From NCBI GenBank assembly GCA_007751255.1, contig CP036296.1:2356001-2420000 (forward strand): DNA of 64,000 nucleotides, in the 5' to 3' direction. Positions 35,719-56,177 of the stretch are shown here, one piece after another. The notes beneath the pieces were generated by a model that did not search any database, had not been told where the DNA came from, and saw nothing but the letters and a program-made list of their open reading frames with translations. Source of the stretch: Engelhardtia mirabilis (GTDB taxonomy: Bacteria > Planctomycetota > UBA1135 > GCA-002686595). How positions within the stretch are numbered: the first letter of the stretch is position 1; every line of letters starts with the position of its first letter. Both the position numbers and the translations under genes were made by a program.

Positions 35719-35728
35719 ACTCGGGTTG

Positions 35729-35734
35729 TAGACT
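35729..35734 (+). promoter_or_regulatory. Possible leaderless -10 element (TAGACT)
   Basis: TAGACT ends seven bases before ATG 35742, the distance expected if transcription starts at or next to the start codon. No Shine-Dalgarno precedes this ATG, which fits a leaderless transcript for the second sulfatase-like gene. Confidence 0.45.
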
Positions 35735-35741
35735 CGTGCCC

Positions 35742-37145
35742 ATGATCCGGCGTCCCTCGACCCCTCTCGCCGTCGCCGCGCTCGGCCTGGTCAGTGCCTG
35801 TGGTGGCGGCGGCCCCGAGAGCCCGCCGGACATCCTGCTGATCAGCCTCGACACCCTGCGGGCCGACCGCGTGTCCGCCTACGGCTCGAGGCAGGAGACG
35901 ACCCCCAATCTGGACCGCATCGCGGCCTCCGGGGTGCTCTTCTCCGAGGCCTGCTCGCCCGCCTCGCAGACCGCACCGAGCCACGTCAGCATCTTCTCCG
36001 GCTTGGATCCCTTGGCCCACGGAGTGCGCAACACGTCGCGCTACGACGAGAGCTCGACGCGCCTGGCCGACAATGCGCCGATGCTCAGTGAGCTGGTCCA
36101 GGCCGCCGGTTGGTACACCGGCGTGATCGGCGACACCGGCAACGTCCATCCGGACATGGGCTTCGACCGCGGCTTCGACTTCCAGGTCTTCGGGATGCAG
36201 CAGCTGCCCGCGAAGCTGCCCCAGGTGAACGACTTCTGTGACGAGGTGCCGGACGGCCAGCCGGCCTTCCTCTTCGTGCACACCTATCAGATCCACTCGC
36301 CCTACGTGCCGCCGGCGCGCTACTTCGGCAAGTTCGCCGACCAGGAGTACCAGGGGGTCTTCCGCCAGCGCTACGACCGATTGGTCGGCAAGCCGATGTC
36401 GGCGGTGTTCGGCGAAGCCGCCGAGTTCCTGACCGAGTTCGAGGGCATGGGGCCGGACGACGTGGCCTGGCTGTCGGACCTCTACGACGACAACGTGCGT
36501 TGGACCGACTTCGGCATCGGCAAGCTGCTCGAGATCTGGAGGGAACGTCGCGGCGAGGACTCGATCGTGATCGTGCTCTCCGACCACGGCGAGCAGTTCG
36601 GCGAGCAGGGCAACCTCGGGCACCGCACCGGCCTGACCCGCGTCTTGACCCATGTGCCGTTGATCGTGGCCGGCCCAGGAGTCGGTCGGGGCGTCGTCGA
36701 TCGGCCCGTGAGCTTGACCGGCATTCCCGCGACCCTCTGCGACCTGCTCGGGCTCGAGATGCCTGCGGCCTTCCAGGTTGGCTCCTTCGCCGATGCGCTG
36801 CGGGATCCCGCCACCTTCGCGCCCGGCGGCCCGGCCTTCGAGCAGCTCCTGATCGGTCGCAAGGCCGGCTTCTTCGAGGGTGTCACCGACGACCGCTGGC
36901 ACCTGGTGCGTGCGTCGGTGGACGGCGACGTGACCGAGAGCCTGTTCGACCTGGACTCGGACCCCAGTGGCCTGCTCGACGTGCGCGACCAGCACGAGGA
37001 AGTGGTCGGGTCGCTGCTCTCGGAGCTCTCCGACCGGCGGCGGCAGAACGTGGACCTGCAGACGCGCTTCGCGACCCTGCGCGGCCCCAGGCTCTCGGTC
37101 CAGCGCCAGCAGGAGCTCGAGGCCCTGGGCTACACCGATCGGTAG
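35742..37145 (+). CDS. Sulfatase-like lipoprotein, paralogue
   Basis: A 467-aa paralogue of the preceding gene. ATG 35742 gives a lipoprotein signal ending LVSAC followed by a Gly run. Motifs: DILLISLDTLRADRVSAYG, nucleophile region TAPSHVSIFSG (Thr again), and VLSDHGEQFGEQGNLGH for the second metal site. It probably acts on the outer face of the inner membrane or in the periplasm. The two genes arose by tandem duplication. Neither has the Cys/Ser needed for formylglycine formation, so both may be transferases or phosphatases rather than sulfatases. Confidence 0.85.
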   Translation: MIRRPSTPLAVAALGLVSACGGGGPESPPDILLISLDTLRADRVSAYGSRQETTPNLDRIAASGVLFSEACSPASQTAPSHVSIFSGLDPLAHGVRNTSRYDESSTRLADNAPMLSELVQAAGWYTGVIGDTGNVHPDMGFDRGFDFQVFGMQQLPAKLPQVNDFCDEVPDGQPAFLFVHTYQIHSPYVPPARYFGKFADQEYQGVFRQRYDRLVGKPMSAVFGEAAEFLTEFEGMGPDDVAWLSDLYDDNVRWTDFGIGKLLEIWRERRGEDSIVIVLSDHGEQFGEQGNLGHRTGLTRVLTHVPLIVAGPGVGRGVVDRPVSLTGIPATLCDLLGLEMPAAFQVGSFADALRDPATFAPGGPAFEQLLIGRKAGFFEGVTDDRWHLVRASVDGDVTESLFDLDSDPSGLLDVRDQHEEVVGSLLSELSDRRRQNVDLQTRFATLRGPRLSVQRQQELEALGYTDR

Positions 37146-38284: not shown

Positions 38285-39316
38285 CTACGCGCAGCAGCCC
38301 TCGATCACCCGCCTGGTGCACCCGGCCAGGGAGAAGCGCTCCTCGTAGCCGAAGTCGCGCACCGCGGGCTCGATCGAATAGGTGTGGTCGAGGGCCAGTT
38401 GCTGGGCCACGAAGCGCGTCATCGGCGGCTCGCCCGAGAATCGCAGGAGCTTCCACAGTCCTTCGAGCGCGGCGCCGAGGCGGTAGGCCGCGGGGGCCGA
38501 CAACCGACGGCCCGGGCGAGGTGCGCCGGCGGCGTCGAGGATCTGGCCGATCCAGTCCCACAGCACGACTTCCTCGCGCTGGTTCACGAAGTAGGCGCGG
38601 CCGGCGTGGGGGGCGTCGGGCGCCAGGCGCGCTGCCGCCTGGACGTGGGCGGCCGCGGCGTTCGCCACGTCGGTGATCGAGACGCGATTGCGACCGTCGC
38701 CGACGATCGCCAGGCGGCCGGCGCGGGCGCGGTCGAGCAGGCGCGGAACCAGATGGGGATCGCCGGGGCCCACGATCAGGTGCGGGCGCAGGGCGACCGT
38801 GGCCAGGTCGCCGCCGCCGGCGAGGGGGCTGCCATTGGCCGTGAGGACGCGACGCTCGGCCTCGGCCTTGGACTCGGGGTAGGGCGACAGGAAGCGCGTT
38901 GGGTAGTCGAGCTCGTCCGCGGTGGCGCCCAGATGGCCCCTGCCGCCGAAGACCACGCTAGGACTCGAACAGTGCACCAGGCGGACGACGCCTGCGTCGA
39001 CGCAGGCGTCGAGCACGCTCTGGGTGCCGTCGACGTTGGTGGTCCAGAAGTCGGCCCGGCGGCCGAAGACGCCGGTCAGGGCGGCCACATGAAAGGCCGT
39101 GTCGTGTCCGGCGAGGGCGGCTCCGACGGCCGTGCGGTCACGCAGGTCCACCGCCGCGCACTGGGCGCCGAGGCGCTCCACGGCCGGATGCCTGCTGCGG
39201 CTGGCGCTGGTGACCTCGCAGCCGGCCGCGCGCAACTGGCGCACCAGTTCGAGGCCCAGGAACCCGCCGCCGCCGGTCACGAAGCAGCGCCCGAGTTGCG
39301 CCGACAGACTGCTCAA
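38285..39316 (-). CDS. oleD: 2-alkyl-3-oxoalkanoate reductase OleD
   Basis: An SDR-family NADPH reductase that turns the beta-keto acid made by OleA into a beta-hydroxy acid. About 343 aa. TTG 39316 is preferred: it overlaps the oleC stop as TTGA and has GGAG eight bases upstream; ATG 39337 would add seven residues. The cofactor motif is FVTGGGGFLG at the N-terminus, the catalytic Tyr-Lys lies in SPYPESKAEAE, and VALRPHLIVGPGD is typical of the 3-beta-HSD-like branch. The C-terminal region is basic and probably membrane-associated. The order oleB-oleC-oleD on one transcript supports the call. Confidence 0.88.
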   Translation of the reverse strand: MSSLSAQLGRCFVTGGGGFLGLELVRQLRAAGCEVTSASRSRHPAVERLGAQCAAVDLRDRTAVGAALAGHDTAFHVAALTGVFGRRADFWTTNVDGTQSVLDACVDAGVVRLVHCSSPSVVFGGRGHLGATADELDYPTRFLSPYPESKAEAERRVLTANGSPLAGGGDLATVALRPHLIVGPGDPHLVPRLLDRARAGRLAIVGDGRNRVSITDVANAAAAHVQAAARLAPDAPHAGRAYFVNQREEVVLWDWIGQILDAAGAPRPGRRLSAPAAYRLGAALEGLWKLLRFSGEPPMTRFVAQQLALDHTYSIEPAVRDFGYEERFSLAGCTRRVIEGCCA

Positions 39317-41040
39317 CGCAGTTGCTCCGTGGCCCATTCGGCAAGCAGCGGGCGATCGATCTTGGCGTTGTGGCGCACGTCGACCGGGAAGCCGGGGTGG
39401 AACAGGGTTCGCGTCACGCGGCTCGCGGTCGCCACCCGATCGCGGCCGTGGGCCAGGATGGCGTCGGCCAGGGCCTCGGTCGGCCGCTCGCTCGGTTCCA
39501 GCTCGATCACCAGCACCGGCAGTTCGGAACCCCGTGCTCCAACCCCGACCAAGGCCGTGCGCCGCACCGCCGGATGGGTGTTGAAGGCGTTCTCGGTGGG
39601 CACGCAGGGCAGCACGCCCAGCTCCGTCTCCAAGCGGTGACTCTTGCGACCCTGGAACCAGAACCGACCGTCGCCGTCGACGCAGCCCAGATCGCCCATG
39701 CGGTGCCAGACGCCGCCGCGGCCGTCGTCGATCTTGGCCAGGGCCGTGGCGCCGGGGTCCTCCGCATAGGCCGGCGTCACCACCGGCCCGCGCACGCAGA
39801 GCTCACCCAACTCGCCGGCTGCGACCTCGAGCTCGTCGCTCCAACTCGCGATCGGTCCGTCGTCGATGCGGATCACGCGCAGGTCCATGCCCGGGGCCGG
39901 TCGGCCGATGCAGTTGCCGCCGCCTGTCTCCGAGTGGGAGCGGATCGAGGCGTCGACGATCTCCGCGCCGGAGACACTGGACACCGGCAGGGACTCGGTC
40001 GCGCCGTAGGGAGTGTGGACGTCGCCGCCGTCGGGCAGCACCGCGCGCAGCGCTTCGACCAACTGCGGCGGGACCGGGGCTCCGGCCACGAGCACGCGGC
40101 GCAGCCCGCCCAGGCGTTCGCCGCGGGCCGCGCACCAGGGCGCCACCCGGCGCCAGATGGCGGGCGAGCCGAAGGCCAGGGTCGCCCCGCTCTCGACCAC
40201 CGCCCGGTGGATCAGGGCCGGATCGCACTGCGCCGGGCGCGTCGGATCCATGTCCGGGAAGACGCTCGTCATCCCCAGGGCGTTGTCGAACAGGGCGAAG
40301 AGCGGGAAGCAGGCCACGTCGACCTCGCCCGGCTGCAGGTCGTACAGGTCGCGCAGGGCCGCGACCTGGGCTTCGAAGATGCCGTGGGTGTAGACCACGC
40401 CCTTGGCCGGACCGGTGCTGCCGCTGGTGAACAGGATCGCCGCCGTCTCGCGGGCGGTGGTGTCCGCGTGGGTGAAGCGGCCGTCGCCGGCGGCTTCGAG
40501 GGCATCGAGGCGCAGCGCGCCGAAGTGCGGGCCGGGGCCGACGCCGACTCGCACGCGGCAGGTTCGGAAGGCGTGGCGGAAGAGCAGCCGAGCCACGTGG
40601 GCGCGGCGCACGCCGATCAGGGCCGCCGGCGCCATGCGCTCGACGCAGGCCAGGAAGGAGCTGCGGCCCATGCCCGGATCGATCAAGACCGGCACGAGCC
40701 CCGCGCGCAGGCAGGCGTAGGTGATCGCGATCAGGTCGATGCCGGGCTCCACCAAGAGGCTCACGCGGTCGCCCCGCACGAGCCCCTGGGCCAGGAGCCC
40801 GGACGCGATGCGCCGACTGCGCGCGGCGAGCACCGCGAAGCTCTGGGACTCCCACTGGCCCGGTCGCCTGCGCACGGCAGCGCGCACCGCCGGGCGCTCG
40901 GGGGCGTCGGCGGCGAAGCGGTCCAGGTGGCGCGCGACGTTGGCGATCCCATCGCCCGCAGTCCCATCGCCCGCAGTCCCTCGTCCCGAGCCGTCGGTGT
41001 CACCGCGCGATCGGCGCGGAGCCCCCGCCGGCCCGGTCAC
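39313..41040 (-). CDS. oleC: Olefin beta-lactone synthetase OleC
   Basis: An acyl-CoA-synthetase-superfamily enzyme (575 aa) that in the ole pathway activates the beta-hydroxy acid with ATP and closes it to a beta-lactone. GTG 41040 overlaps the oleB stop as GTGA. The AMP-binding motif is LFTSGSTGPAKGVVYTHG. TPYGATESLPVS matches the substrate-pocket motif of OleC, and MGDLGCVDGDGRFWFQGRKSHR is the hinge region. The C-terminus (FPVDVRHNAKIDRPLLAEWA) is also OleC-like. The N-terminal ~25 residues are low-complexity with a 15-bp tandem repeat. Position between oleB and oleD gives strong support. Confidence 0.9.
   Translation of the reverse strand: MTGPAGAPRRSRGDTDGSGRGTAGDGTAGDGIANVARHLDRFAADAPERPAVRAAVRRRPGQWESQSFAVLAARSRRIASGLLAQGLVRGDRVSLLVEPGIDLIAITYACLRAGLVPVLIDPGMGRSSFLACVERMAPAALIGVRRAHVARLLFRHAFRTCRVRVGVGPGPHFGALRLDALEAAGDGRFTHADTTARETAAILFTSGSTGPAKGVVYTHGIFEAQVAALRDLYDLQPGEVDVACFPLFALFDNALGMTSVFPDMDPTRPAQCDPALIHRAVVESGATLAFGSPAIWRRVAPWCAARGERLGGLRRVLVAGAPVPPQLVEALRAVLPDGGDVHTPYGATESLPVSSVSGAEIVDASIRSHSETGGGNCIGRPAPGMDLRVIRIDDGPIASWSDELEVAAGELGELCVRGPVVTPAYAEDPGATALAKIDDGRGGVWHRMGDLGCVDGDGRFWFQGRKSHRLETELGVLPCVPTENAFNTHPAVRRTALVGVGARGSELPVLVIELEPSERPTEALADAILAHGRDRVATASRVTRTLFHPGFPVDVRHNAKIDRPLLAEWATEQLR
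40947..40976 (+). repeat. 15-bp tandem repeat in oleC
   Basis: TCCCATCGCCCGCAG occurs twice in tandem and encodes a short Gly/Asp/Ala-Thr repeat near the OleC N-terminus. Copy number may vary between strains. Confidence 0.8.
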
Positions 41041-42077
41041 GCCCCGCTGGCCCCGGGGGCTGCCGCGACCTCGACCGGGTGGGCTTCGAGGAAGGCCGCG
41101 ATGTGGTTCAGCACCTCTTCGGGCGCGTCCTCGAGCACCCAGTGCCCCGCGTTGGCGATGGTGTGGACCTCGGCGGCGGGGAAGAACTGCTGGTAGCGAT
41201 CGCGGAACTCGGTGGTGAAGCACCAGTCGCGCGCGCCCCAGACGATGCAGGTGGGTCGATCGGCGAGCCCGCTGAGGGACTCCTCGATCGCGACCAGGTC
41301 GTTCCAACTGCGATGGGAGGGGTCCATCGGGATGTCGTCCACGAACGCCTGGATCGCGACGCGATCGGCCCAGGAGGCGTAGGGCAGCAGGTAGCCGCGC
41401 CGCTCGGCGCGGGTCCAGCGCTTGCGCTCCACCGCCCACATCAGGGCCAGGCGCGAGAAGAGCCCGAGGCCGCGGATGCCCAGGCGACCCAGGAAGGGCA
41501 CGCGACCCATGGCGATGCGCCCGGGCATGCGCGTCGAGCGAAAGGCGCCCGAGTTGAGGATCACGAGGCGCTCGACCAGCTCCGGCCGACGCGCCGCCAG
41601 GCCGAGTCCGATGGCCCCGCCCCAATCCTGGACCACGAGCGTCGCGCGCTCGATGCCGAGCTCGTCCACCAGGGTCTCGAGCGAGTCGATGTGCCGCGCG
41701 AGGCGGTAGTCGAAGTCGGCCGGCTTCTCGGAGAAGCCGCAGCCGATCAGGTCCGGGGCCACCACGCGGTGGGTGAAGCGGAAGCGGTCGATCAGGCGAC
41801 GCCAGTGGAAGGACCAGCTGGGGTTGCCGTGTACGCAGAGCAGCACCGGCGCGGCGGGGTTGCCCTCGTCGACGAAGTGCATCCACGGGCCCCCGTCCAC
41901 GCGCACGAAGTGGGGCGTCACCTCGTACTCGGGGACCAGCTTGTTCTTGAGGCGGCGGCGGTCGTCGGCGAGGTCGAGCGGAGCCCGCTCGGCGCCGCGC
42001 TGACGCGACTTGCCTCCGGCCGGACGCACGGTGCGGCCCTGGGCGGCGGGCTCGGAGGTCGGATCGGTGGAGGGCAT
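41037..42077 (-). CDS. oleB: Beta-lactone decarboxylase OleB (alpha/beta hydrolase)
   Basis: A haloalkane-dehalogenase-like hydrolase of 346 aa that in the ole pathway decarboxylates the beta-lactone to a cis-olefin. The nucleophile elbow is VVQDWGG (Asp nucleophile), the oxyanion region VHGNPSWSFHWR, and the catalytic His lies in NAGHWVLED. HFVDEGNPAAPVLLCVHGNP and LIGCGFSEKP are typical of this subfamily. An N-terminal extension of about 45 basic residues precedes the fold; the true start could be internal. It overlaps oleC by four bases and starts 52 bases after fabI. Confidence 0.87.
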   Translation of the reverse strand: MPSTDPTSEPAAQGRTVRPAGGKSRQRGAERAPLDLADDRRRLKNKLVPEYEVTPHFVRVDGGPWMHFVDEGNPAAPVLLCVHGNPSWSFHWRRLIDRFRFTHRVVAPDLIGCGFSEKPADFDYRLARHIDSLETLVDELGIERATLVVQDWGGAIGLGLAARRPELVERLVILNSGAFRSTRMPGRIAMGRVPFLGRLGIRGLGLFSRLALMWAVERKRWTRAERRGYLLPYASWADRVAIQAFVDDIPMDPSHRSWNDLVAIEESLSGLADRPTCIVWGARDWCFTTEFRDRYQQFFPAAEVHTIANAGHWVLEDAPEEVLNHIAAFLEAHPVEVAAAPGASGA

Positions 42078-42129
42078 GGGAGGTGGGGGGGCGCGCAGAG
42101 GATAGCGGCCCGGCCGCCATCGGGAGCGA

Positions 42130-42954
42130 TCAGACTCCGTCGGGTCGCGTGGCGCGGCTCACGATCTCTTGGTCGAAGTAGTTCAGCTCCATCCCGGCGT
42201 CGACCACCAGGCCCTGGCCGTTGAGGCCGCTGGAGCGGGGCGAGAGCAGGAAGACGGCCGTGTCGGCGACCTCCACCGTCGCCAGGCCGCGCTTTCTGGG
42301 GATGGCCGCCTCCGCGAAGAGGTAGCTCTCCAGGTAACCGGGGATGCCGGCGGAGGAGCTGGTCTTGAGCAGGCCGGCCTTGACGGCGTTGAAGCGCACC
42401 TCCGTGTCGGCCGAGAAGCTCTTGGCCAGGAAGGCCACGGACGAGTCCAGGGCGGCCTTGACCGGGGCCATGTAGCCGTAGTTCTCCGAGGCCATGCGGG
42501 TGGTCGAGATCGAGATCGTGACCACGGAGGCGTCGTGGGCGAAGAGCGGCTTGAGCGTGCGCGAGAGCTGCACCAGGGAGAAGCACGAGACGTTGATCGC
42601 CTGCAGGAAGTCGTCGCGGCCGGTCTCGTGGAAGGGCTTGGGGCCCTCCGAGTAGTTGGCGAAGGCGATCGAGTGGCACAGGCCGTGGAGCTGGTCCACG
42701 CCCGCGTCGCGCAGGGCGCCGGGTAGGGCCTCGATCTGGCCCTGGTCCTCGACGTCGCAGACCACCACGGGGCCGTCGCCGGGGAGCTTGGCGGCCAGCT
42801 CGTCGCGGCGCTGCTCGCTGCGAACGCTCCAGCAGACCCGAGCCCCGGCCTCGACCAGGCGCTTGCCCACCTGGAATCCGACGCTCTTCTTGTTGGCCAC
42901 CCCGGCGATCAGGATGCGCCGGCCCGCGAGGCCCATGAAGTCGGTGGCGCTCAT
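42130..42954 (-). CDS. fabI: Enoyl-ACP reductase FabI
   Basis: An NADH-dependent SDR enzyme (274 aa) that reduces trans-2-enoyl-ACP, the last step of chain elongation. The start ATG 42954 overlaps the dehydratase gene as ATGA. FabI signatures: [18 protein letters not shown] for cofactor binding, [29 protein letters not shown] with Y-x6-K, and [19 protein letters not shown]. Being inside a secondary lipid cluster with a dedicated ACP and synthase suggests either the housekeeping FabI placed here or a copy for a special chain. The downstream ole genes would use the product. Confidence 0.9.
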
Positions 42955-43430
42955 CGGTCCACGCGACCCATGGCGCCGGCGGCGCTGAGCACGAAGGAGA
43001 GGTCCACCGCCTTCTTGCCTCCGCAGCGCACCACGCCGCGCAGGATCCAGGCCGGGCCGAGGCGCTCGACCAGCTTGACCTCGGTCTCGACGGTCTCGCC
43101 CGGCAGCACCATGCGGCGGAAGCGCGCGCCCTCGAGCTTGGTGACCACGGGCACACCGTCACCGGCGTCGAAGCCCGCCAAGGCGCGGCTGACGAGCAGC
43201 GCCCCGGACTGCAGGGCGTGCTCGCACAGCAGTACCCCCGGAGTCACCGGCTGACCCGGGTAGTGCCCGCGGAACCAATCGGCATCAGCGGGCACGGTCC
43301 AGCGCGTGACGATGCGCTCGTCCTGCGCCTCGAGCACCTCGTCGACCAGCAGGAAGGGCTCGCGGTGGGGGATGGCGGCTTCGATCGCCGCGCGATCGGC
43401 GGGTGCCTCGAGTCGGGTGGACTGGGTCAT
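42951..43430 (-). CDS. 3-hydroxyacyl-ACP dehydratase, FabZ/FabA-like hot-dog protein
   Basis: A 159-aa hot-dog fold dehydratase that removes water from 3-hydroxyacyl-ACP. [15 protein letters not shown] marks the N-terminus. The catalytic His and the acidic partner lie in [40 protein letters not shown] follows, as in FabZ. Length is normal for FabZ. It sits between the FAD oxidoreductases and FabI in a single operon, providing the dehydration step in the same elongation set. Confidence 0.87.
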
Positions 43431-43449
43431 GGGAGCGGTTCGCGCGGGG

Positions 43450-44979
43450 TCAGGCGCTGACTTCGGCCAGGGAGTAGAGCCAGGCGTCGACCTTGTTGGC
43501 GCAGATCGCGCCGTAGTTCGCCGCCCCGAGCCAACCGGACATGATGATCCCGACGCTGCCGGCGTGGAACAGGCCGCCGATCTCGTCGGGCAGCTGGGTC
43601 GAGACCTCGAGGCCCTCGAACTTGGTGCCGAAGGAGGTCCCGGTGGGGTGCTCGGTGTAGAAGGCGAAGGTGCGCGGCGTGGCGACCTCCACGTGGTCGA
43701 TCAGTCCGCCCACCCCGGGCACGTAGCCCTCCAGGCAGGCCAGGGTGTCGGCGGCGAGCTTGTCCTTGGCGGCGTCGTAGGCGGCCTGGTCGAGCTCGGC
43801 CCAGTCCTCCCAGCGCGCGTTGGTGGAGCTGACCACGCTGTAGCGCGGACGACCCTGGGGGCGGGTCTTCGGGTAGTAGAAGGAGAAGGTGCGGCTCTCG
43901 CCGTGGAAGTCGCACAGGGACTCGGACGTGAAGGTCGGCCGTGTGGACGTGAACAACAGGTCCGTCACCCAGGGCAGCTCGGCGCCATCGCGCACGCCCA
44001 TGTAGACCTGGCAGCTCGACGTGTTCAGGCGCACCTTGCCGGCCTTGGCCACGAAGTCCGGGTCGAAGTGCGCCGCGCCGACCAGCTTGTGGACGGTGGT
44101 CAGCACGTTGGCGTTGGAGACCACGGCCTTGGCGGCGATGAAGCGTCCCAGGGCCTCGACGCCGGCTACGCGGCGCTCACCCATGGGGCTCTCCTCGATC
44201 ACGATCTTGTCGACCAGCACGGAGTTGAAGATCTCTACGCCGTTGGCGACCAGCTCGGCCTTCATCTTCTTGATCAGGGTGTCGGTGCCGCCACTGAAGG
44301 TGTACACGCCCTTGCTCATGAAGTTCGAGAAGACGATCCCGTAGCTGATCGCCGGGTCGTCGAGGGTCGAGCCGTTGGCGTAGCTGATCGGCTCCATCAA
44401 GAGCCGGTGGACGTCGTTGCGCCCGGGGAAGCAGCGCTCGAGCAGCTCGCCCGTGGTCTCGGTGGTCGGGTCGAAGAAGTCCATCCGACGCAGTTCGTCG
44501 TAGAAGGCCTCGACCTTCGCGCGCTCGAGCCCGAACACGTCGACCAGCTTGTTCGTGAAGTCGACCCGCGTGAACTCGGTCTCGAAGGAGAACTGCGGGT
44601 TGTCGAAGCGCACCCCGTCGAGCTGCTCGATCGAGTCGGCGATCTCCTGGGTCCAGTACTTGCGGCACGTCTTCTTCATCCCGATCGGGAAGCCGTGCAG
44701 GGAGATGTCGAACGTGTGCCCGCCCTTGCGGCGGAACCAGGTGGCCAGGCCGCCGAAGTTGTAGTGCTGCTCGAGCAGGGCCACCCCGTGTCCGGCGCGG
44801 CCGAGCACGTTGGCCGCGGTCAAACCGCCCAGGCCACTGCCGATCACCACCAGGTCGTAGGCGGAGGCGGCCCCTTCGAGGGGGTCCTTGGTCAGGGGCC
44901 GCTTGCCGTCGGTGCTGCCCTTGAAGTAGCGCACGTCGCGCTCGCCCCGGGGGCGCGGGATCTCGTCGGAGTGAGTCAT
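43450..44979 (-). CDS. CrtI-like FAD oxidoreductase
   Basis: A 509-aa flavoprotein of the phytoene desaturase/carotenoid isomerase superfamily. The dinucleotide-binding motif is [20 protein letters not shown] followed by [13 protein letters not shown]; the C-terminal FAD contact is [16 protein letters not shown]. These enzymes desaturate or isomerise long hydrophobic chains. No carotenoid gene (phytoene or squalene synthase) is nearby; instead it is surrounded by ACP, synthase, dehydratase and reductase genes. I infer an acyl-chain substrate, perhaps introducing or rearranging double bonds. The next gene is a second member of the family. Confidence 0.82.
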
Positions 44980-44994
44980 GGCTGGAGTTCGGGG

Positions 44995-46395
44995 CTAGCG
45001 GGCGGCCATCGCGTGCTGGGTGGCGATCGAGATCCCCGAGACCGCCGCGCCGATCACGCCCAGGAAGCCCTGGTCGGTGCCGCAGAGGTACAGGCCCGCC
45101 ACGGGGGTGGAGCCGTCGGGACGCTTGCGCGGGCTGCCGTAGATCGCGCCGCCGAGCTTGCGCGTGTACTTGGTGAGCGTGCGCGGTGTGAACACGTCCC
45201 GGAAGGTCTCGTGGGGGCGCACGTCGGCGCAGAAGGCGGTCGTGGCCTCGAGCGCTGCATCGGACAGGAGCTGCTTGCGGGCCACGTACTCGTCCTCTTC
45301 CAGCGCGACCCAGCGCTCGTGGTCCGCCAGCACCGTGACGCGGAACAGCGGCTCGCGCTCCGCCGGCGTGCCCGCGAAGTTGGTCGGCATCGAGATCACG
45401 CCGGAGCTCACGTCCACCAGGCGGTCGGGCCGCTCGTAGCGGAAGCGCTCACCCGTGGAATAGAAGATCACCGCTGCGTCCATGTCCGGCCCCAGCTCGT
45501 GGGGCCAGCGGTCGAGCACGCAGATCGTCTCGACGAACGACAGGCGGCCGGCGTCGCCAGGGCGCACGTGCTCGGACTCGAGCGCCTCTCCGCACAGGTG
45601 CATGGTCTCGACCCAGCCGGCGGAAGAGATCACCCGGTCGGTCGCCAGCCGCGTCCCGTCGGCCAGGACGACCGCGCGAGCCGCGCCGCCCTCGACTTCG
45701 ATGCGCGCCACGTCGGACTTGAGCCGCAGCTCGGCACCGGCGGCGACGAGGCGGTCCTTGAACAGGGCCAGGAAGGGCCGGATGCCCTCGGCGGGCATGG
45801 CCAGGCCTTCCAGGAAGATCGAGCGGAACAGGATCACGAACTGGTCCCAATCCACGTCGTTCTCGCGCGCGCTGCCGTAGTAGCAGGTGGGCACCAGTAG
45901 GAGGTCGACGAGGTCGGCGTCGCCGAGGCGCGCCGTCAGGCGCTCGCGCGCGCTGGACGGGTCGGGCTCGCCCAGGGGGGCGTCGCGGAGCTCGTCGACC
46001 AGCGCGACAAAGGCGTCGACGCGCGCCGGGAAGCAGCGACCGATCTCCTCGATCAGGAGCTCGACCTGATTCGAAAAGCGCACGCGATGCCCGGCACAGA
46101 CGACCTGCGACGTCTTCTGGGGCAACAGGTTCAGCTCGTCGTGGCTGATCCGCAACTGCTTGCAGACCCGGGCCAGGGGCGTGCCCCGGGTGCCCTTGGG
46201 CACGTAGTTCGTCAGGGCGTGCATCCCGGTGTCGAACAGGTGCCCGCCGCGCTTGTAGAACGAGTTGAGGCCGCCCCAGAGGTAGTGTTGCTCCAGGACG
46301 GCCACACGCTGGCCGAACATGGCCAGCCTGATCCCCGCCGCCATGCCACTCAGGCCGGCGCCGATGACGATCGTGTCGTAGCGCTCAGGGATCAT
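44995..46395 (-). CDS. CrtI-like FAD oxidoreductase, second copy
   Basis: A 466-aa flavoprotein related to the adjacent one, with TIVIGAGLSGMAAGIRLAMFG and LEQHYLWGGLNSFYKRGG at the N-terminus and LYLCGTDQGFLGVIGAAVSG at the C-terminal FAD site. The gene order gives two similar desaturase/isomerase-like enzymes 15 bases apart on one transcript. They may act in sequence on the same chain or as a pair. The shared LEQHYxxGGL element supports common descent. The substrate is unknown; an ACP-bound acyl chain is the contextual guess. Confidence 0.82.
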   Translation of the reverse strand: MIPERYDTIVIGAGLSGMAAGIRLAMFGQRVAVLEQHYLWGGLNSFYKRGGHLFDTGMHALTNYVPKGTRGTPLARVCKQLRISHDELNLLPQKTSQVVCAGHRVRFSNQVELLIEEIGRCFPARVDAFVALVDELRDAPLGEPDPSSARERLTARLGDADLVDLLLVPTCYYGSARENDVDWDQFVILFRSIFLEGLAMPAEGIRPFLALFKDRLVAAGAELRLKSDVARIEVEGGAARAVVLADGTRLATDRVISSAGWVETMHLCGEALESEHVRPGDAGRLSFVETICVLDRWPHELGPDMDAAVIFYSTGERFRYERPDRLVDVSSGVISMPTNFAGTPAEREPLFRVTVLADHERWVALEEDEYVARKQLLSDAALEATTAFCADVRPHETFRDVFTPRTLTKYTRKLGGAIYGSPRKRPDGSTPVAGLYLCGTDQGFLGVIGAAVSGISIATQHAMAAR

Positions 46396-46441
46396 GGAGA
46401 GGGACCATCCGCCGACAGCAGGCGCCCATTCGGCGCATGCT

Positions 46442-46461
46442 CCAACGCCGCCAGGCGTTGG
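46442..46461 (-). terminator. Hairpin after the ACP gene
   Basis: Perfect 8-bp stem (CCAACGCC / GGCGTTGG) with a 4-base loop, downstream of the acyl carrier protein gene on the minus strand. With the adjacent 7-bp hairpin it may separate the KAS-ACP unit from the FAD oxidoreductase genes. No T-run is present. Confidence 0.5.
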
Positions 46462-46480
46462 GCCAACAGTACCTGCGCTA

Positions 46481-46497
46481 CTCGGGCTATGCCCGAG
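46481..46497 (-). terminator. Hairpin overlapping the ACP stop
   Basis: Perfect 7-bp stem (CTCGGGC / GCCCGAG) with a TAT loop. The ACP stop codon lies within it. Together with 46442-46461 it forms a double-hairpin stop or attenuation region inside the cluster. Confidence 0.5.
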
Positions 46498-46762
46498 AAG
46501 CGCAGTGAAGCTCTTTGTCCGCGAGCTTCGGGCCGAGGTAGTCGACGCAGCCCTGCAGGGTGCCGAGCTCCTTGTAGTCCTCCTCGGGGACCTGCACGCC
46601 GTAGAGCTTGCGCAGCTCCATGACGATGTCGAGGAAGTCCATGGAGTCCAGCTCGATCTGGTCGCGCAGGCGCTCGTTCATGTCCAGGCCGTCGACCTCC
46701 TCGTCGGGGGCGATGGTCTGGATGATGTCCTTGATGGCGACGACGACTTCTTCCGGGGTCAT
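46487..46762 (-). CDS. Acyl carrier protein
   Basis: A 91-aa acyl carrier protein. The phosphopantetheine attachment Ser is residue 40 in IELDSMDFLDI. Helix I (VVAIKDIIQTIAP) and the acidic helices are typical. DSMDF replaces the usual DSL of housekeeping ACPs, as in carriers dedicated to secondary lipid or polyketide pathways. ATG 46762 is 47 bases after the synthase stop. The last 15 residues (after YLGPKLADKEL) extend past the normal end. It likely holds the growing chain for the synthase, dehydratase and reductase of this cluster. Confidence 0.88.
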   Translation of the reverse strand: MTPEEVVVAIKDIIQTIAPDEEVDGLDMNERLRDQIELDSMDFLDIVMELRKLYGVQVPEEDYKELGTLQGCVDYLGPKLADKELHCASRA

Positions 46763-46809
46763 GGCGGTGGTGGGGTAGGCGGTCAGGGGTGGGGTGGTTC
46801 CAGGTGAAC

Positions 46810-48051
46810 TCAGCCGCGGTGGTACTTCTTGACCACGACGGCCGAGTTGATTCCGAGCATCCCGAAGGACATGTTCATCACGTGCTCGACCTCGCCGATC
46901 CGGCGGGGCTCGTTCAGCACCAGGCCGCGCAGGTCGCACTCGGGGTCGAGGTCATCGACGTTGATCGTGGCGTGGACCACGCCGTCCTCGAAGCTGGGCA
47001 GGTTGCCGGCCAGCTCGAGGGCGCCGGCCGCGCCCATGGCGTGGCCGATGAAGCTCTTGGTGTTGTTGACGTGGACGCGCGGCTCGTCGCCGAAGACCTC
47101 GCGCACGGCTCGGCACTCGACGGTGTCGCCCGAGGGCGTCGAGGTGGCGTGGGTCGACAGCACGTCGATCTCGCCCGGCTCGATCCCGGCGCTCTCCAGG
47201 GCCAGGCGCATGCAGCGGTTCTGGCCGTCGGAGTCGGGCAGCACGAAGTCGGTGGCGTCCGAGTTGACCGAGTGCCCGACGACCTCGCCGTAGATCCGCG
47301 CACCGCGGGCCAGGGCGTCGTCCAGGCGCTCGAGGGTGTAGAGCGCGCCGCCCTCAGCCACGACGATCCCGTTTCGAGCGGTGTCGAAGGGTCGCGAGGC
47401 CTTGGTCGGGTCCGCGTGGGTGGCCAGGGCGCCCTGGGCGTTGAACGAGGCGAAGATCCCGAAGGTGTGGATCGACTCCGAGACGCCGCCCGCCAAGGCC
47501 AGGTCCACCTGCCCGAGCTGCAGCATCTGCATGCCCTGGATCAGGCCGAGGTTGCCCGCCGCGCAGGCGCCGCCCAGGCAGTAGGCCGGCCCGCCGATGC
47601 CGAGGTTCAGGGTCACCTCGCCCGCGGGGTTGTTGGCCACCGTGCGCGGGTTGTGGTGGTGGGACCAGTAGGAGCAGTCGTAGCCGTACTGGCTGATGTT
47701 GAAGACCTCGGCCTCGGTCTCCACGTTGCCGTGCTCGGTGGTGCCGATGTAGATGCCCACGCGGTTGCGGTCGCGGGTCTCGAGGTCGATCCCGGCGTCG
47801 GCCAGGGTCTCGTTGGCGCAGAACACCGCGATCGAACCGGCGCGGGTGCCGCGGCGGACTTCCTTGCGCTTCTGGTAGCGCAGGGCGTCGAAGTCGCAGA
47901 TGCCGGCCAGGGTCTTGCCGAAGTAGCGGATCTCGTAGGGCTGGACGCCCGAGACGCCCGCGAGCAGGTTCTTGCGGTACTCGGCCAGGGAGTTGCCGTT
48001 GGGGCTCGTCAGCCCGATCCCGGTGATCACGACGCGGGGCAGGTCGATCAC
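46810..48051 (-). CDS. 3-oxoacyl-ACP synthase, FabF-like
   Basis: A condensing enzyme of the KAS I/II family (413 aa) that extends ACP-bound chains with malonyl-ACP. GTG 48051 overlaps the regulator gene stop as GTGA. The catalytic set is complete: Cys163 in GGACAAGN, His301 in STHATSTPSGD, Lys332 and His337 in NNTKSFIGHAMG. The loop around HHHNPRTVANNPAGEV is standard. Sequence around Cys (ACAAGN rather than ACATS) differs from housekeeping FabF, suggesting a specialised chain. It forms a unit with the GbsR-like regulator and ACP. Confidence 0.88.
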   Translation of the reverse strand: MIDLPRVVITGIGLTSPNGNSLAEYRKNLLAGVSGVQPYEIRYFGKTLAGICDFDALRYQKRKEVRRGTRAGSIAVFCANETLADAGIDLETRDRNRVGIYIGTTEHGNVETEAEVFNISQYGYDCSYWSHHHNPRTVANNPAGEVTLNLGIGGPAYCLGGACAAGNLGLIQGMQMLQLGQVDLALAGGVSESIHTFGIFASFNAQGALATHADPTKASRPFDTARNGIVVAEGGALYTLERLDDALARGARIYGEVVGHSVNSDATDFVLPDSDGQNRCMRLALESAGIEPGEIDVLSTHATSTPSGDTVECRAVREVFGDEPRVHVNNTKSFIGHAMGAAGALELAGNLPSFEDGVVHATINVDDLDPECDLRGLVLNEPRRIGEVEHVMNMSFGMLGINSAVVVKKYHRG

Positions 48052-48782
48052 GATCGGGCCTCCTGCGGCTCGTCGTCGCCCGACGGACCCTCGAGGGTGG
48101 ACTCGGCCTGTTGGCGGGCCTCCTCCTCGGCGCGGATCGCGGCCAGGGCCGGGGTGGCGAGGGCGACGAGGTCGTCGGTGGTAGCGTCCTTGCCCTTGCC
48201 GCCGAAGCCGACCTTCAGGGCGGCGTGGATCGCGCGGCTCAAGATCGACTGGCTGTCGCCGAGGGCGTTGGCGACCGCGCCCACGAGCAGGGTCATCAGA
48301 GCCTCCGCGATCTCGCAGGCCGAGATGATCGAGCGCAGGGTCAGGACCCGCGGGTCCCGCTCGCCGTAGCGCTTCTGGACGAACTTGAGGGAGCGGTCGG
48401 CGGTCAATCGGAACTGCTGGAAGGCCACCGCCTCGCGCCGGCGCAGGATCGTCGCCGCGATCGAGAGGGCGTTGCCGACCGGGCTGTGGAGGTGGCAGCG
48501 GCGGTGGCTGTCGAAGGTCCGCGTGACTGCGCCCCACTCGACCAACTCGCCCAGGGTGGTGCTGGCCGCCCCCTGGCTGATCTCGATCTGCTCGCAGATG
48601 TCCTTCGCGGACAGGTGCTGCTCGGAGAGCACCAACAGGCCCCAGACCCGGCCGTGGACGCGCTTGAACCCGAAGGTCTTGAAGAACTGCTCGAACGCCG
48701 GGAGCTCGGCCGCAAGCTCGGGGTCGAGCGGCGTCAATCCACCGCCGGTGGCAGTGGAGGGGGGGTGGAGGGTCGAGGACAT
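48048..48782 (-). CDS. GbsR/MarR-type transcription regulator
   Basis: A winged-helix regulator of about 244 aa that heads the lipid cluster. ATG 48782 is chosen because it removes a non-conserved, palindrome-containing leader. The DNA-binding domain is near residues 30-100 (FKRVHGRVWGLLVLSEQHLSA, then DICEQIEISQGAASTTLGEL). This is GbsR-like (COG1510 type), a MarR relative. The C-terminal part is helical, with an acidic tail rich in Glu. A 22-bp palindrome 17 bases upstream is a natural operator. It probably controls its own operon and perhaps the downstream ole genes. Confidence 0.82.
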   Translation of the reverse strand: MSSTLHPPSTATGGGLTPLDPELAAELPAFEQFFKTFGFKRVHGRVWGLLVLSEQHLSAKDICEQIEISQGAASTTLGELVEWGAVTRTFDSHRRCHLHSPVGNALSIAATILRRREAVAFQQFRLTADRSLKFVQKRYGERDPRVLTLRSIISACEIAEALMTLLVGAVANALGDSQSILSRAIHAALKVGFGGKGKDATTDDLVALATPALAAIRAEEEARQQAESTLEGPSGDDEPQEARS

Positions 48783-49069: not shown

Positions 49070-49234
49070 TCAGAACATCGAGTACAGGAACGGCGACAGC
49101 AGGGGGAAGGCCGCGCCGATGCCGATCACCGAACCGACCAGGACCAGGGCCAAGACGATCACCAGCATGTGACGGTTCTCGCGCCGGGTCGCTTGCCCCA
49201 CCAGATCGGCGAGGGTGGAGAGCTTGTCCTTCAT
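49070..49234 (-). CDS. Small DUF5989-like membrane protein
   Basis: A 54-aa protein with one membrane segment (MLVIVLALVLVGSVIGIGAA cut here as residues 23-42) and the ending FPLLSPFLYSMF, which resembles the DUF5989 family that accompanies carbamoyltransferases in glycan clusters. ATG 49234 overlaps the carbamoyltransferase stop as ATGA, so it is translationally coupled. The N-terminus (KDKLSTLADLVGQATRRENR) is cytoplasmic and basic. Function of the family is unknown to me. Confidence 0.7.
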   Translation of the reverse strand: MKDKLSTLADLVGQATRRENRHMLVIVLALVLVGSVIGIGAAFPLLSPFLYSMF

Positions 49235-51036
49235 GCGCTGGGCTCCAGGGTCGCGCTTTCGGCCGGGACGGGAACCGGGTCCTTGGCCGGTCGAACGAGG
49301 TGGGGGTAGGCGGCGAGCAGGCCCAGCCCGCAGCGGCGGGCGGAGCGCAGGCCGTCGTCGAGGCTGTTGACGATCGGCTCGCCCGCGTCGTTGAAGCTGG
49401 TGTTCACCAGGGCCGGGATGCCGGTGAGCGCGTGGAAGCGGGCAAGGACCCGATGCAGCAGCGGTCCGTCGCAGGGTCGCAGGCACTGCACCCGCGCCGA
49501 GCCGTCCACGTGGGTCACGGCCGCCAGGCGCCCGCGCCACGCCTTCCGGGTCGTGACCGTGGCCAGCATGTGCCGCTCGAGCTCGCGCCCGGGGCACAGG
49601 CCCTCGAACAGCTCCTCGGCCCACTCGTCCAGGACCACCGGGGCGAAGGGCCGGAAGTCCTCGCGGTGCTTGACCATCCGGTTGAGCCTGCGCTGCTGCC
49701 CGGGCGAATCCGGGCGGGCCAGGATGCTGCGCGCTCCGAGCGCCCGCGGACCCCACTCGGCGCCGCCCTGCATCCAGCCCACCACCTCGTCGTCCGCGAG
49801 GGCCTGGGCGACGTGCTCGACGAACTCGTCCTCGCTCTGCGTTCGCTGGAACGAGTCGGAGCCCGAGTCGGAGCCCGAATCGTCGAACGTCAGCCCCGCG
49901 AACTCCGCGCTAGACACGTCCAAGCCCAGGAAGGGGCTGAACGCTCCAGCCGGTCGGTAGATGCCGTGGCTGGCGCAATAGGCCAGGGCCGCTCCCAGGG
50001 CGCCGCCCGCGTCACCTGACGCCGGGTGGATGAGCAGGCGCGAGAAGGGACCTTCCCGCGCCAGCTTGCCGTTGGCGACGCAGTTCAGCGCCACACCGCC
50101 GGCATAGCAGAGCACCGACTCCCCGGTCAGCTCCCGCGCGCGCTCGAACAGGCGCAGGAGCTCCTCTTCGAGCACCACTTGGAGCGACGCCGCGATGTCC
50201 GCGCAGCGCTGGAACTCGGTGCCCTCGCGCCCCAGCCGCAGTGGACGGCCAGGATTGCGAGGCGGGCCCAGGAGACGCTCGAGCTCCGCCGACCAGCCGC
50301 GAGTGACCGAGCGGTCGTGGCTGAAGTAGCGCAGGTCCAACTCGAACAGCCCATCGTCCGGGTGCCGGATCAGCTGCCGCAACTCCGGTACGAAGCGCGG
50401 CTGGCCGTAGGGCGCCAGGCCCATCACCTTGTACTCGCCCTCGTTGACGCGAAAGCCGAGGAAGGCGGTCAGGGCCGAGTACAGCAGGCCCAGGGAGTGG
50501 GGGAAGTCGACGGACCCGAAGACGTCGTAGACCATGGCCCCCTCGGCGCGCGACAGGCGACCCAGGGTCGTCGAGGTCCACTCGCCCACGCCGTCCACCA
50601 CCAGCGTCGCCGCCGAGGGCACGTCGTGGGTCAGGAACGCCGCGGCGGCGTGGGACAGGTGGTGGTCGGAGAAACGCACCCTGTCGAGCGGGACTCCGAG
50701 GGCCTTGGCGATCTCGCTCTTGATCCAGAGCTTGCTCTCGAACCAGGAGTGCAGGGCGCCCTTGAAGGCGCGGAACCCGCCCGGCGCGTTGGCGAGGGAC
50801 GTCGAGACGATGCGATAGAACTTGCGGAAGGGCTTCTCGTAGAAGACCACCGCGTCCAAGTCGGTGGCTTCGATGCCGCCTCTTTCCAAGCAGAACGACG
50901 CCGCGCGGATCGGCAGGCTCGAATCGCCCTTGCGCCGGGAGAAGCGCTCCTCCTGGGACGCGGCAATCGGGCGACCGTCGATCACGAGGGCTGCTGCCGA
51001 GTCGTGGAAGTGGGAGGAGAGACCGAGGACTTTCAA
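49231..51036 (-). CDS. NodU/CmcH-type O-carbamoyltransferase
   Basis: A 601-aa enzyme that transfers a carbamoyl group from carbamoyl phosphate to a hydroxyl, via a carbamoyl-adenylate. TTG 51036 is supported by GGAG six bases upstream. The N-terminal Kae1-like domain has GLSSHFHDSAAALVIDG, EERFSRRKGD, SDHHLSHAAAAFLTHD (metal-binding His), VDGVGEWTSTT and CYAGGVALNCVANGKL. The C-terminal domain has QGGAEWGPRALGARSILA, VKHREDFRPFAPVVL and PALVNTSFNDAGEPIV. The substrate is probably a surface sugar, given the neighbouring DUF5989 and SGNH genes. A Ser/Asp-rich repeat (DSGSDSGSDSF) lies in the middle. Confidence 0.9.
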   Translation of the reverse strand: MKVLGLSSHFHDSAAALVIDGRPIAASQEERFSRRKGDSSLPIRAASFCLERGGIEATDLDAVVFYEKPFRKFYRIVSTSLANAPGGFRAFKGALHSWFESKLWIKSEIAKALGVPLDRVRFSDHHLSHAAAAFLTHDVPSAATLVVDGVGEWTSTTLGRLSRAEGAMVYDVFGSVDFPHSLGLLYSALTAFLGFRVNEGEYKVMGLAPYGQPRFVPELRQLIRHPDDGLFELDLRYFSHDRSVTRGWSAELERLLGPPRNPGRPLRLGREGTEFQRCADIAASLQVVLEEELLRLFERARELTGESVLCYAGGVALNCVANGKLAREGPFSRLLIHPASGDAGGALGAALAYCASHGIYRPAGAFSPFLGLDVSSAEFAGLTFDDSGSDSGSDSFQRTQSEDEFVEHVAQALADDEVVGWMQGGAEWGPRALGARSILARPDSPGQQRRLNRMVKHREDFRPFAPVVLDEWAEELFEGLCPGRELERHMLATVTTRKAWRGRLAAVTHVDGSARVQCLRPCDGPLLHRVLARFHALTGIPALVNTSFNDAGEPIVNSLDDGLRSARRCGLGLLAAYPHLVRPAKDPVPVPAESATLEPSA

Positions 51037-51049
51037 AGACGGCTCCGGG

Positions 51050-51853: not shown

Positions 51854-52012
51854 GGCGAGCGCCTCGTGTGCCCGGACCGGGCGGGGGGCCCGGACTGCGA
51901 GTTGGGCCATCCTAGGGGCGGCAGAGCGGTCCGTGTAGGGGTGGCCGTGAAGTCCCACGAGGACTCGAATTTCGGGCAAAACCCACCGCGCGCCGATGGC
52001 GAGCGTTGGTCT

Positions 52013-55139: not shown

Positions 55140-56177
55140 CTAGACCTCGACCCCCAGCATCAGGCACTGTAGCCCCGAGCCGATCCCCAGCAACGCCACC
55201 CGCTGCCCCGCCACGATGTGCCCCGCCTCGCGCGCCAGGGCGTAGGTCGCCGGAAGGGACACCGAGCCGATGTTTCCGAGCACCTCGACCGTCGGCCAGT
55301 CGAGCTGCGGATCGACGCCGATCGAGCCCAGCAGTGCGCGCCGGTGGGCGACGCCCACCTGGTGGGTCACGATGCGGTCCACGTCGCTCGCCGACCACTC
55401 GAGCTCCTCGAGGAACCGTGGCCAGGTCTCCGCCGCCAGGGCGCATCCGGCCACGAGCAGCGCCTCGCTGTCGGTTTCCATCAGCGGACCGCTCGCGCCC
55501 TCCACCCGGTCACCGCGGCAGAGGTGGTTGTGCTCGGTCGCCGCGCGCAGGAGGCCACCGCGCAGGCGCGCGCCGTCCGGGGCCAGGTCGGCGTGGCACA
55601 GCACCGCCGCCGCACCCCCGGAGCCGATGGTGAGCGAAGCGAAGGCGCGCTTGAGCTCCGCCTTGCCCACGGACTCGGCCCCGAGCAACTGTTCGATCGT
55701 GGCTTCCACCAGCGGCCCCCCGTCCTCACCGGCCACCACCAGCGCCGCCTCGAGGTCGCCGCGCTCGATCTGGCCCGCCGCCACCGTCATCGCGTGGGCG
55801 AAGCCCAGGCAGGCGTTGGACAGATCGAAGGCGGCGCAGTGGTGGGCCAGTCCCAGAGCAGCGTGGACCACGGTGGCCGTGGCTGGCTCCATGAAGTCGC
55901 GGCAGACAGCCGAGTGCACCACCAGACCGATTCGAGCGGGGTCGATCCCCGCCTCGCCCAGGGCCCGCCGGGCGGCCGCGATCGAAGCGTCGCTGGGCAG
56001 TGTCCCCGGATCCCAGAAGCGTCGCTCGCGGATGCCGCTCATCAGCTCCAGGCGCCCGACGCGCAGCCTCAGCGCCTCGTAGACCGGGCTCAGCCGCTGC
56101 TCGAGCTCCTCGGACGTGACCACCCGTTCGGGCAGGGCCGGGGCCAAGGCGGCGATACGTACGTCGCGGAAGCGCAT
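55140..56177 (-). CDS. oleA: Head-to-head condensing enzyme OleA
   Basis: A thiolase-superfamily enzyme (345 aa) that joins two acyl-CoAs in a non-decarboxylative Claisen condensation to a beta-keto acid, the first step of long-chain olefin synthesis. The catalytic Cys is residue 123 in FDLSNACLGFA. His lies in THQVGVAHRRAL and Asn in LGNIGSVSLPATYALA. N-terminal PERVVTSEELEQRLSPVYEA and LELMSGIRERRFWDPG are close to known OleA. The other ole genes are about 13 kb away on the same strand. It diverges from dinB with a 57-base shared promoter region. Confidence 0.88.
   Translation of the reverse strand: MRFRDVRIAALAPALPERVVTSEELEQRLSPVYEALRLRVGRLELMSGIRERRFWDPGTLPSDASIAAARRALGEAGIDPARIGLVVHSAVCRDFMEPATATVVHAALGLAHHCAAFDLSNACLGFAHAMTVAAGQIERGDLEAALVVAGEDGGPLVEATIEQLLGAESVGKAELKRAFASLTIGSGGAAAVLCHADLAPDGARLRGGLLRAATEHNHLCRGDRVEGASGPLMETDSEALLVAGCALAAETWPRFLEELEWSASDVDRIVTHQVGVAHRRALLGSIGVDPQLDWPTVEVLGNIGSVSLPATYALAREAGHIVAGQRVALLGIGSGLQCLMLGVEV

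Follow-up and report, generated by a model that had tools for sequence, protein, structure and literature searches.

Why should two flavoproteins that resemble carotenoid enzymes be encoded between genes for fatty acid synthesis and genes for the head-to-head joining of acyl chains? The question is raised by a 64,000-nucleotide stretch of the planctomycete Engelhardtia mirabilis (assembly GCA_007751255.1, contig CP036296.1, positions 2,356,001 to 2,420,000; hereafter the window, from a genome of 6.9 Mb in two contigs), in which ten genes run from a GbsR-like regulator (48782) to OleD (38285). We propose that these genes and OleA probably form one pathway, in which a type II counterpart of the polyunsaturated fatty acid (PUFA) synthase Pfa, with the CrtI-like pair as acyl double-bond isomerases, would feed OleABCD to yield a C31:9-like hydrocarbon.

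The operon, its OleA and their conservation

All ten genes lie on the minus strand in a single run, as the first-pass annotation of this DNA had described, and from the regulator to OleD neighbours are separated by -4, 47, 91, 15, 19, -4, 52, -4 and -25 nucleotides. Because the gaps measure only -25 to +91 nucleotides, we read the ten genes as one operon. The families assigned with Pfam and NCBIfam models match those named in that annotation, mostly at family level: most of the proteins score under the equivalog cut-offs, and the names therefore denote relatives of FabF, FabI, FabZ and carotenoid isomerase, not the standard enzymes. The genes, with OleA, are:

38285..39337, minus strand: OleD, 2-alkyl-3-oxoalkanoate reductase, 3Beta_HSD family (NF042422, 348 bits, under the equivalog cut-off of 580, E 5e-104)
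39313..41040, minus strand: OleC, olefin beta-lactone synthetase, AMP-binding (NF006754, 621 bits, over the cut-off of 478; NF045786, 533 bits, under 900); start codon taken as the GTG at 41040
41037..42077, minus strand: OleB, beta-lactone decarboxylase, a haloalkane-dehalogenase-like alpha/beta hydrolase (PF00561, E 3e-32; haloalkane dehalogenase model, 146 bits, cut-off 265)
42130..42954, minus strand: FabI-like enoyl-acyl carrier protein (ACP) reductase of the short-chain dehydrogenase/reductase type (PF13561, E 3e-54; best FabI model, 163 bits, cut-off 370)
42951..43430, minus strand: FabZ, 3-hydroxyacyl-ACP dehydratase (PF07977; TIGR01750, 93 bits, cut-off 155, E 2e-26)
43450..44979, minus strand: CrtI1, CrtI/CrtISO-like flavin adenine dinucleotide (FAD) protein (TIGR02730, E 2e-24, 86 bits, cut-off 587; PF01593)
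44995..46395, minus strand: CrtI2, second CrtI/CrtISO-like FAD protein (TIGR02730, E 1e-19, 70 bits, cut-off 587; PF01593)
46487..46762, minus strand: dedicated ACP with a Ser-containing LDSM motif (PF00550, E 5e-8)
46810..48051, minus strand: FabF-type ketoacyl synthase (KAS; TIGR03150, 316 bits, cut-off 494, E 2e-94)
48048..48782, minus strand: GbsR/MarR-like transcription regulator, first gene of the operon (PF12802, E 2e-7), found in most family loci
55140..56177, minus strand: OleA, head-to-head acyl condensing enzyme (NF006720, 419 bits, over the cut-off of 285)

OleB, OleC and OleD are all present, adjacent and overlapping, OleB and OleD being named by family and position. The gene for OleA, which the first-pass annotation missed, lies beyond the stretch it had described, 6,357 nucleotides upstream of the regulator and on the same strand. 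The protein aligns over its full length with chain 3fk5, which we take to be the OleA of X. campestris, and keeps the Cys, His, Asn and Glu97 that are presumably catalytic.

Gene order in relatives, which the first-pass annotation had named as a check on its reading, is well kept. When 41 genomes, one of them that of the window and 40 of relatives, were searched for CrtI1, each of the 24 further family members in this sample had it, at 64-72% identity, and the 16 genomes from other families of the order had weak paralogues or nothing; the family member G070 (92% complete; G, L and f are our handles for genomes, loci and families) has neither CrtI1 nor OleA. In the 24 family loci mapped, the core order KAS-ACP-CrtI2-CrtI1 is present in 22, FabZ-FabI follows CrtI1 in 22, OleB follows FabI in 18 (in two of them, L042 and L055, after 4-6 kb), and in 12 OleA precedes GbsR at a distance of 0.2-4.5 kb; contig ends explain several of the missing genes. 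FabG is inserted between CrtI1 and FabZ in 13 of the 24, and an open reading frame (ORF) resembling a phosphopantetheinyl transferase (PPTase), recognised by eye, occupies 12 of the 16 FabI-OleB gaps that were read; one ORF of each kind was confirmed with Pfam. The consensus order is thus OleA-GbsR-KAS-ACP-CrtI2-CrtI1-[FabG]-FabZ-FabI-[PPTase]-OleBCD, and its conservation far exceeds chance.

Co-occurrence with OleA and alternation with Pfa

An alignment scan of genome contigs with CrtI1 gave at least 566 relatives, the best 80 of which were kept and all their loci mapped. Among these 80 loci, which belong to Planctomycetota, Phycisphaerae, Verrucomicrobia/Opitutales, Nitrospinota and one Nitrospirae, many carry the core KAS-ACP-CrtI2-CrtI1-(FabG)-FabZ-FabI, the ole genes preceding it, following it or not being seen nearby, and some carry CrtI1 alone (for example L103, L106 and L119). 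The locus L071 of Planctomycetes bacterium Poly30 (CP036434) reads OleA-GbsR-KAS-ACP-CrtI2-CrtI1, and FabZ, FabI and OleBCD do not appear in the 10 kb read beyond CrtI1; the genome of L103, Coraliomargarita sp. SDUM461004, has both CrtI1 and OleA. Other families show different gene orders with ole genes still adjacent. We searched for OleA in 28 CrtI1 genomes from the mapped loci, comprising four with OleA already in the locus (L066, L071, L074 and L136), three with OleC-OleD (L091, L094 and L131) and 21 with no ole gene nearby; OleA was found in 25, including five of the seven Nitrospinota with CrtI1.

The same association holds in larger samples. In 392 Planctomycetota genomes, with CrtI1 called at E <= 1e-60 and OleA and PfaD over cut-off, CrtI1 is present in 98, OleA in 146 and PfaD in 52. 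OleA accompanies CrtI1 in 96 of the 98, the two misses being incomplete genomes (G301, 80%; G368, 61%), and occurs in 50 of the 294 genomes lacking CrtI1. In 240 Verrucomicrobiota genomes CrtI1 was found in 65, OleA in 66 (65 over cut-off and G651 under it) and both in 62. The Fisher p values, ~5e-51 and ~1e-48 respectively, are descriptive and overstate independence, since the genomes within a phylum sample are related. In 13 single-contig genomes of family f32 CrtI1 and OleA lie ~0.47-3.6 Mb apart, so that linkage does not account for their co-occurrence there. The first-pass annotation had conceded that its single-pathway reading would fail if the KAS/ACP unit never co-occurred with ole genes; unit and ole genes are found together almost without exception.

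What does OleA work with in genomes that lack CrtI1? The 146 planctomycete genomes with OleA divide into 96 with CrtI1, 47 with PfaD, none with both and three with neither, and PfaD is absent from all 98 genomes with CrtI1. Families f32 and f52 each contain both partner types, never within one genome. In the PfaD-positive loci L188 and L197 the ORF immediately preceding oleA contains three stretches of FabA type and two or three of ketosynthase type, and exceeds the cut-off of the FabA dehydratase/isomerase model NF003509. This distribution shows that the module replaces Pfa as the partner of OleA.

The phylogeny of OleA follows the same division. A careful tree was built from 59 CrtI1-type loci (the window included), 26 PfaD-positive genomes and G177, leaving out L226 (from G043, with a very long branch) and L227 (from G310). 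The 59 rows of the CrtI1 type and the 26 of the Pfa type fall on opposite sides of one branch, with support of 100/100 and recovery in 100% of 200 bootstrap trees; a first quick tree of 88 rows, with L226 and L227 included, gave the same split. When the ten OleA rows of f32, a group chosen after the first tree had been seen, were constrained to one clade, the constraint was rejected (p-AU 5e-7), which indicates that within one family OleA follows its partner and not its host. In an extended quick tree, OleA of two of the four Verrucomicrobiota genomes that have it without CrtI1 (G486 and G564) was placed, on the Pfa side in both cases.

In the window's own genome a Pfa system was considered and rejected: PfaD (TIGR02814) gave no match, the best match to the PfaA-type synthase model TIGR02813 reaches 290 bits against a cut-off of 1010, and the large polyketide synthase (PKS) ORF has the domains KS-AT-DH-ER-KR-ACP beside a nonribosomal peptide synthetase (NRPS) module. 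This type I ORF of 2271 residues and its neighbour, a condensation-adenylation NRPS ORF, constitute a separate secondary-metabolite cluster (G000:C1:672500-690500; L181:1-10253).

A proposed route to the chain and its alternatives

In PUFA synthases two modes of isomerisation have been proposed, trans-2 to cis-2 and trans-2 to cis-3 (PMC4882568), and in marine bacteria Pfa supplies a predicted 16:4n-3 chain to OleA (PMC6463001). From a partner that takes the place of Pfa we infer a polyunsaturated chain; the isomerase role of the CrtI-like pair lies one inferential step further. KAS, ACP, FabZ and the FabI-like reductase, with a ketoreductase and a PPTase (within the cluster in many relatives, elsewhere in the window's genome), would form a dedicated type II synthase that builds this chain without oxygen. 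FabZ would introduce a trans-2 double bond, which CrtI1 and CrtI2, as flavin isomerases, would convert to cis-2 or shift to cis-3, letting it persist through the following round of elongation, and the FabI-like enzyme would reduce the bonds that are not retained. If double-bond positions are followed through two-carbon elongations, 2,3-isomerisation at C6 and C12, 2,2-isomerisation at C8 and C14 and full reduction at C4, C10 and C16 would lead to 16:4n-3. OleA would then join two chains head to head, OleD would reduce the ketone, OleC would form the beta-lactone and OleB would remove CO2; two 16:4n-3 chains joined with loss of CO2 would give a C31 hydrocarbon with nine double bonds.

The sequences of the individual enzymes can be compared with this scheme. 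Cys163, His301 and His337 of KAS are invariant in all 17 family sequences, and the protein shares 34% identity with the core FabF of the genome. Its gate loop is altered, reading SFGMLGINS in the window; of 25 sequences compared across three phyla, 21 share GMLGINS, two have GMxGINS and two could not be read with the pattern. At this position the FabF chain 4ls6, aligned for comparison, has GFGGHNA. A GMLG-INS gate in place of the GFGG of FabF may be a sequence mark of the module. Standard FabZ is not known to isomerise. In the FabZ of the module the His and Glu of the family motif, which we take to be catalytic, are visible in all 24 rows printed. As for the accessory activities, the genome carrying the window has two PPTases elsewhere, one of which matches the cluster PPTase of relatives (41% over 80 residues), and a FabG beside the core FabF that is 40% identical to their cluster FabG.

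Some fabZ frames of relatives hold additional domains. In L092:11470-12630 and L085:6984-8087, the two cases checked with Pfam, the frame contains an in-frame insertion of ~230 residues, assigned by its match to the IS200/Y1 transposases (PF01797), after which FabZ resumes; split FabZ matches also occur in L090, L107 and L174, and the similar locus L175 has a plain FabZ. In L084:11466-12428 a single open frame joins FabZ to an N-terminal PDDEXK_3 nuclease-superfamily domain (PF13366, E 2e-38).

CrtI1 and CrtI2 are ~29% identical to each other, and both exceed the cut-offs of PF01593 and PF13450, which place them in the FAD-binding amine-oxidase family. The best NCBIfam model of both is carotenoid isomerase, far below cut-off, and the closest solved chains by sequence are 4dgk and 4rep. 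On plasmids only distant relatives of the CrtI family were found (25-27% identity, four of 72,556 records). In several relatives, including G072, G191, G279, G319, G552, G646 and G664, the CrtI1 match spans one or two stop codons, which may reflect alignment past the C-terminus or real breaks. Could the pair serve carotenoid synthesis after all? The phytoene synthase family PF00494 has no match in the window's genome, the same search being positive in seven of 14 control genomes; the search did not extend to relatives. On this ground we rejected a carotenoid role. The first-pass annotation had held that phytoene synthase genes accompanying the flavoproteins in relatives would undo its reading; those gaps of the relatives' operons that were read contained FabG and PPTase-like genes.

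Several observations weigh against the pathway that we propose. Its lipid product and enzyme activities are predictions from genes, most operon proteins score below curated equivalog cut-offs, and the alternation with Pfa suggests, rather than demonstrates, that the chain is the same. OleA is absent from three of the 28 CrtI1 genomes (those of L096, L111 and L135), two of them Nitrospinota, and among Verrucomicrobiota three genomes have CrtI1 without OleA and four the reverse; the relatedness that inflates the Fisher values belongs here as well. Three planctomycete genomes with OleA have neither partner (G043, 92% complete; G177; G310, 54% complete), and in the quick tree the first and the last fall on the CrtI1 side despite no CrtI1 having been found in them, G043 on its very long branch, and G177 falls on the Pfa side. 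Five genomes have PfaD without OleA, and over the 20 kb read at the same-family locus L038 no ole gene was seen. The operon of the window contains neither FabG nor PPTase, and OleA is parted from it by 6.4 kb of other genes. Finally, a 2016 review states that all producers of C31:9 also make eicosapentaenoic or docosahexaenoic acid (PMC4882568), which disagrees with our proposal and with the finding of Rattray et al. (2009) that Desulfotalea psychrophila contains C31:8 and C31:9 hydrocarbons, no PKS-type PUFA synthase having been found (PMC2649909). The genes between operon and OleA are:

49231-51171: carbamoyltransferase
51050-51979: protein without a Pfam match
52027-53253, plus strand: SPASM radical-S-adenosylmethionine (SAM) protein
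53293-54375, plus strand: GDSL lipase-like protein

None of these four has a match in the 24 stretches of relatives that were mapped, each of up to 20 kb. On the other side of the operon, ORFs 34270-35718 and 34863-37145 (window positions 34270-37145) hold tandem stretches that by eye look like sulfatases.

How else could the genes be read? The CrtI-like proteins could be desaturases instead of isomerases: the pathway would be the same, with CrtI1 and CrtI2 acting as oxidative acyl-ACP desaturases on the finished chain and passing electrons to a quinone or another acceptor, a role that Rattray et al. put forward for Kuenenia and Desulfotalea. The related CrtI and CrtD enzymes are desaturases, the role is discussed in that paper (PMC2649909), and the Kuenenia proteins kuste3336 and kuste3607 failed to replace CrtI in lycopene formation, which makes another substrate likely (PMC4790861). 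We nevertheless consider this version unlikely, though the most serious of the alternatives, because the best NCBIfam model of both proteins, far under its cut-off as it is, is an isomerase, because isomerising an enoyl thioester should be easier chemically than desaturating a saturated chain, and because the operon keeps synthase genes of its own, as would fit double bonds formed during elongation. Less probable still is a specialised chain that is not polyunsaturated, of a particular length, with a branch or with only one double bond, and suited to the OleA of the module. The OleA clade split by itself shows only partner specificity, and the OleA of Xanthomonas uses ordinary chains of type II fatty acid synthase (FASII; PMC6463001); yet the module alternates with Pfa, a maker of polyunsaturated chains, and not with nothing, and such a chain would leave no obvious job for two isomerase- or desaturase-like flavoproteins.

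A ladderane-like or otherwise cyclised chain would be a further reading by analogy with anammox clusters, with whose proposed genes the operon shares FabF, ACP, FabZ and CrtI-like types. We regard it as very improbable: none of the ten genes encodes a radical-SAM or SAM-methyltransferase protein by Pfam, the SPASM radical-SAM gene at 52027-53253 lies on the opposite strand and has no match in the 24 relative stretches, the KAS active site is intact, and the polyenes of D. psychrophila, whose gene set is similar, are acyclic (PMC2649909). The first-pass annotation had expected an unusual chain, possibly polyunsaturated or rearranged, that is joined head to head; its polyunsaturated form has gained strong indirect support from the one-or-other pattern with Pfa and from the OleA tree, and its rearranged, ladderane-like form is not supported, the operon being free of radical-SAM genes and its KAS keeping the Cys and two His. 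That carotenoid-type flavoproteins and accessory fatty acid synthesis genes merely happen to lie beside unrelated ole genes is hardly credible. Every part does belong to a large, promiscuous family, but the order in family loci and the co-occurrence counts speak strongly against a chance neighbourhood; ole genes are adjacent under different gene orders in other families, the association persists without linkage, and the window's genome has no phytoene synthase match.

Comparison with known systems

The idea that CrtI-like enzymes take part in anaerobic polyunsaturation is that of Rattray et al. (PMC2649909) and is not new here: they described FASII clusters with phytoene-dehydrogenase-like genes common to D. 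psychrophila and Kuenenia, and proposed from them an anaerobic route to polyunsaturation. C31:8 and C31:9 polyene hydrocarbons are reported also from Planctomycetes, with chain-making enzymes proposed (PMC2649909), and pfa-like synthases of Deltaproteobacteria and Planctomycete strains were tied to ole genes by Shulse and Allen (2011; PMC3098273). The text of Rattray et al. contains no word beginning with "ole", and in the open-licence PMC literature searched, as far as its texts were available, we found no description of a type II/CrtI module joined to OleABCD or alternating with Pfa; the ole link and the Pfa alternation are the parts not found there, a related FASII/CrtI route having already been proposed.

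If the proposed pathway is right, it represents a new route to polyunsaturated chains, tells what the large group of proteins labelled "phytoene dehydrogenase-like" does, and offers a non-carotenoid reading of clusters that carry such genes. The module is a concrete candidate, in three phyla, for the synthesis of C31:8 and C31:9 chains, for which only proposed enzymes existed, and it would bear on models of anammox ladderane synthesis, which rest on similar gene types. It is predicted to be independent of oxygen, and its small separate proteins could be expressed and omitted singly, which makes the question of the polyene chain directly testable. A broader claim seems to us evenly poised between right and wrong: that bacteria have a second and unrelated type of synthase for polyunsaturated chains in this module, dissociated and of type II, common to Planctomycetota, Verrucomicrobiota and Nitrospinota, whose two CrtI-like flavoproteins carry out the pair of isomerisations (trans-2 to cis-2; trans-2 to cis-3) that in Pfa are attributed to FabA-type domains, and that it explains C31:9 in bacteria without Pfa.

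The closest functional parallel is Pfa with OleABCD in Shewanella and Geobacter, whose product is C31:9: in both systems OleABCD is partnered by a dedicated synthase that has a carrier protein of its own, and across the 392 planctomycete genomes the two are alternatives. They differ in architecture, since Pfa consists of multidomain PfaA-C plus PfaD whereas the operon encodes separate type II proteins and no PfaD. The two Pfa ORFs examined have FabA-type domains, in contrast to the FabZ and two CrtI-like flavoproteins of the operon, which has no FabA-type protein (the search for FabA covering the operon), and the respective OleA proteins lie on opposite sides of the tree. With the carotenoid isomerase/CrtD family (TIGR02730, TIGR02733) CrtI1 and CrtI2 share membership of the FAD-binding amine-oxidase family; they differ in their scores of 86 and 70 bits against the TIGR02730 cut-off of 587 and in a genome without a phytoene synthase match. 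A precedent for the proposed chemistry, likened by description, is the linoleate isomerase of P. acnes (PAI), an FAD-binding member of the amine-oxidase family that moves a double bond within a fatty acid (PMC2885616), its substrate being free linoleate. The clusters of D. psychrophila and Kuenenia stuttgartiensis (PMC2649909), likewise compared by description, bring FabF, ACP and phytoene-dehydrogenase-like genes together as the operon does, but they include radical-SAM enzymes and an acyl-CoA ligase-like gene and have FabI elsewhere, whereas none of the ten operon genes is of the radical-SAM type; and the divergent FabF paralogues that Rattray et al. describe in Kuenenia lack active-site residues, whereas the operon KAS keeps Cys163, His301 and His337.

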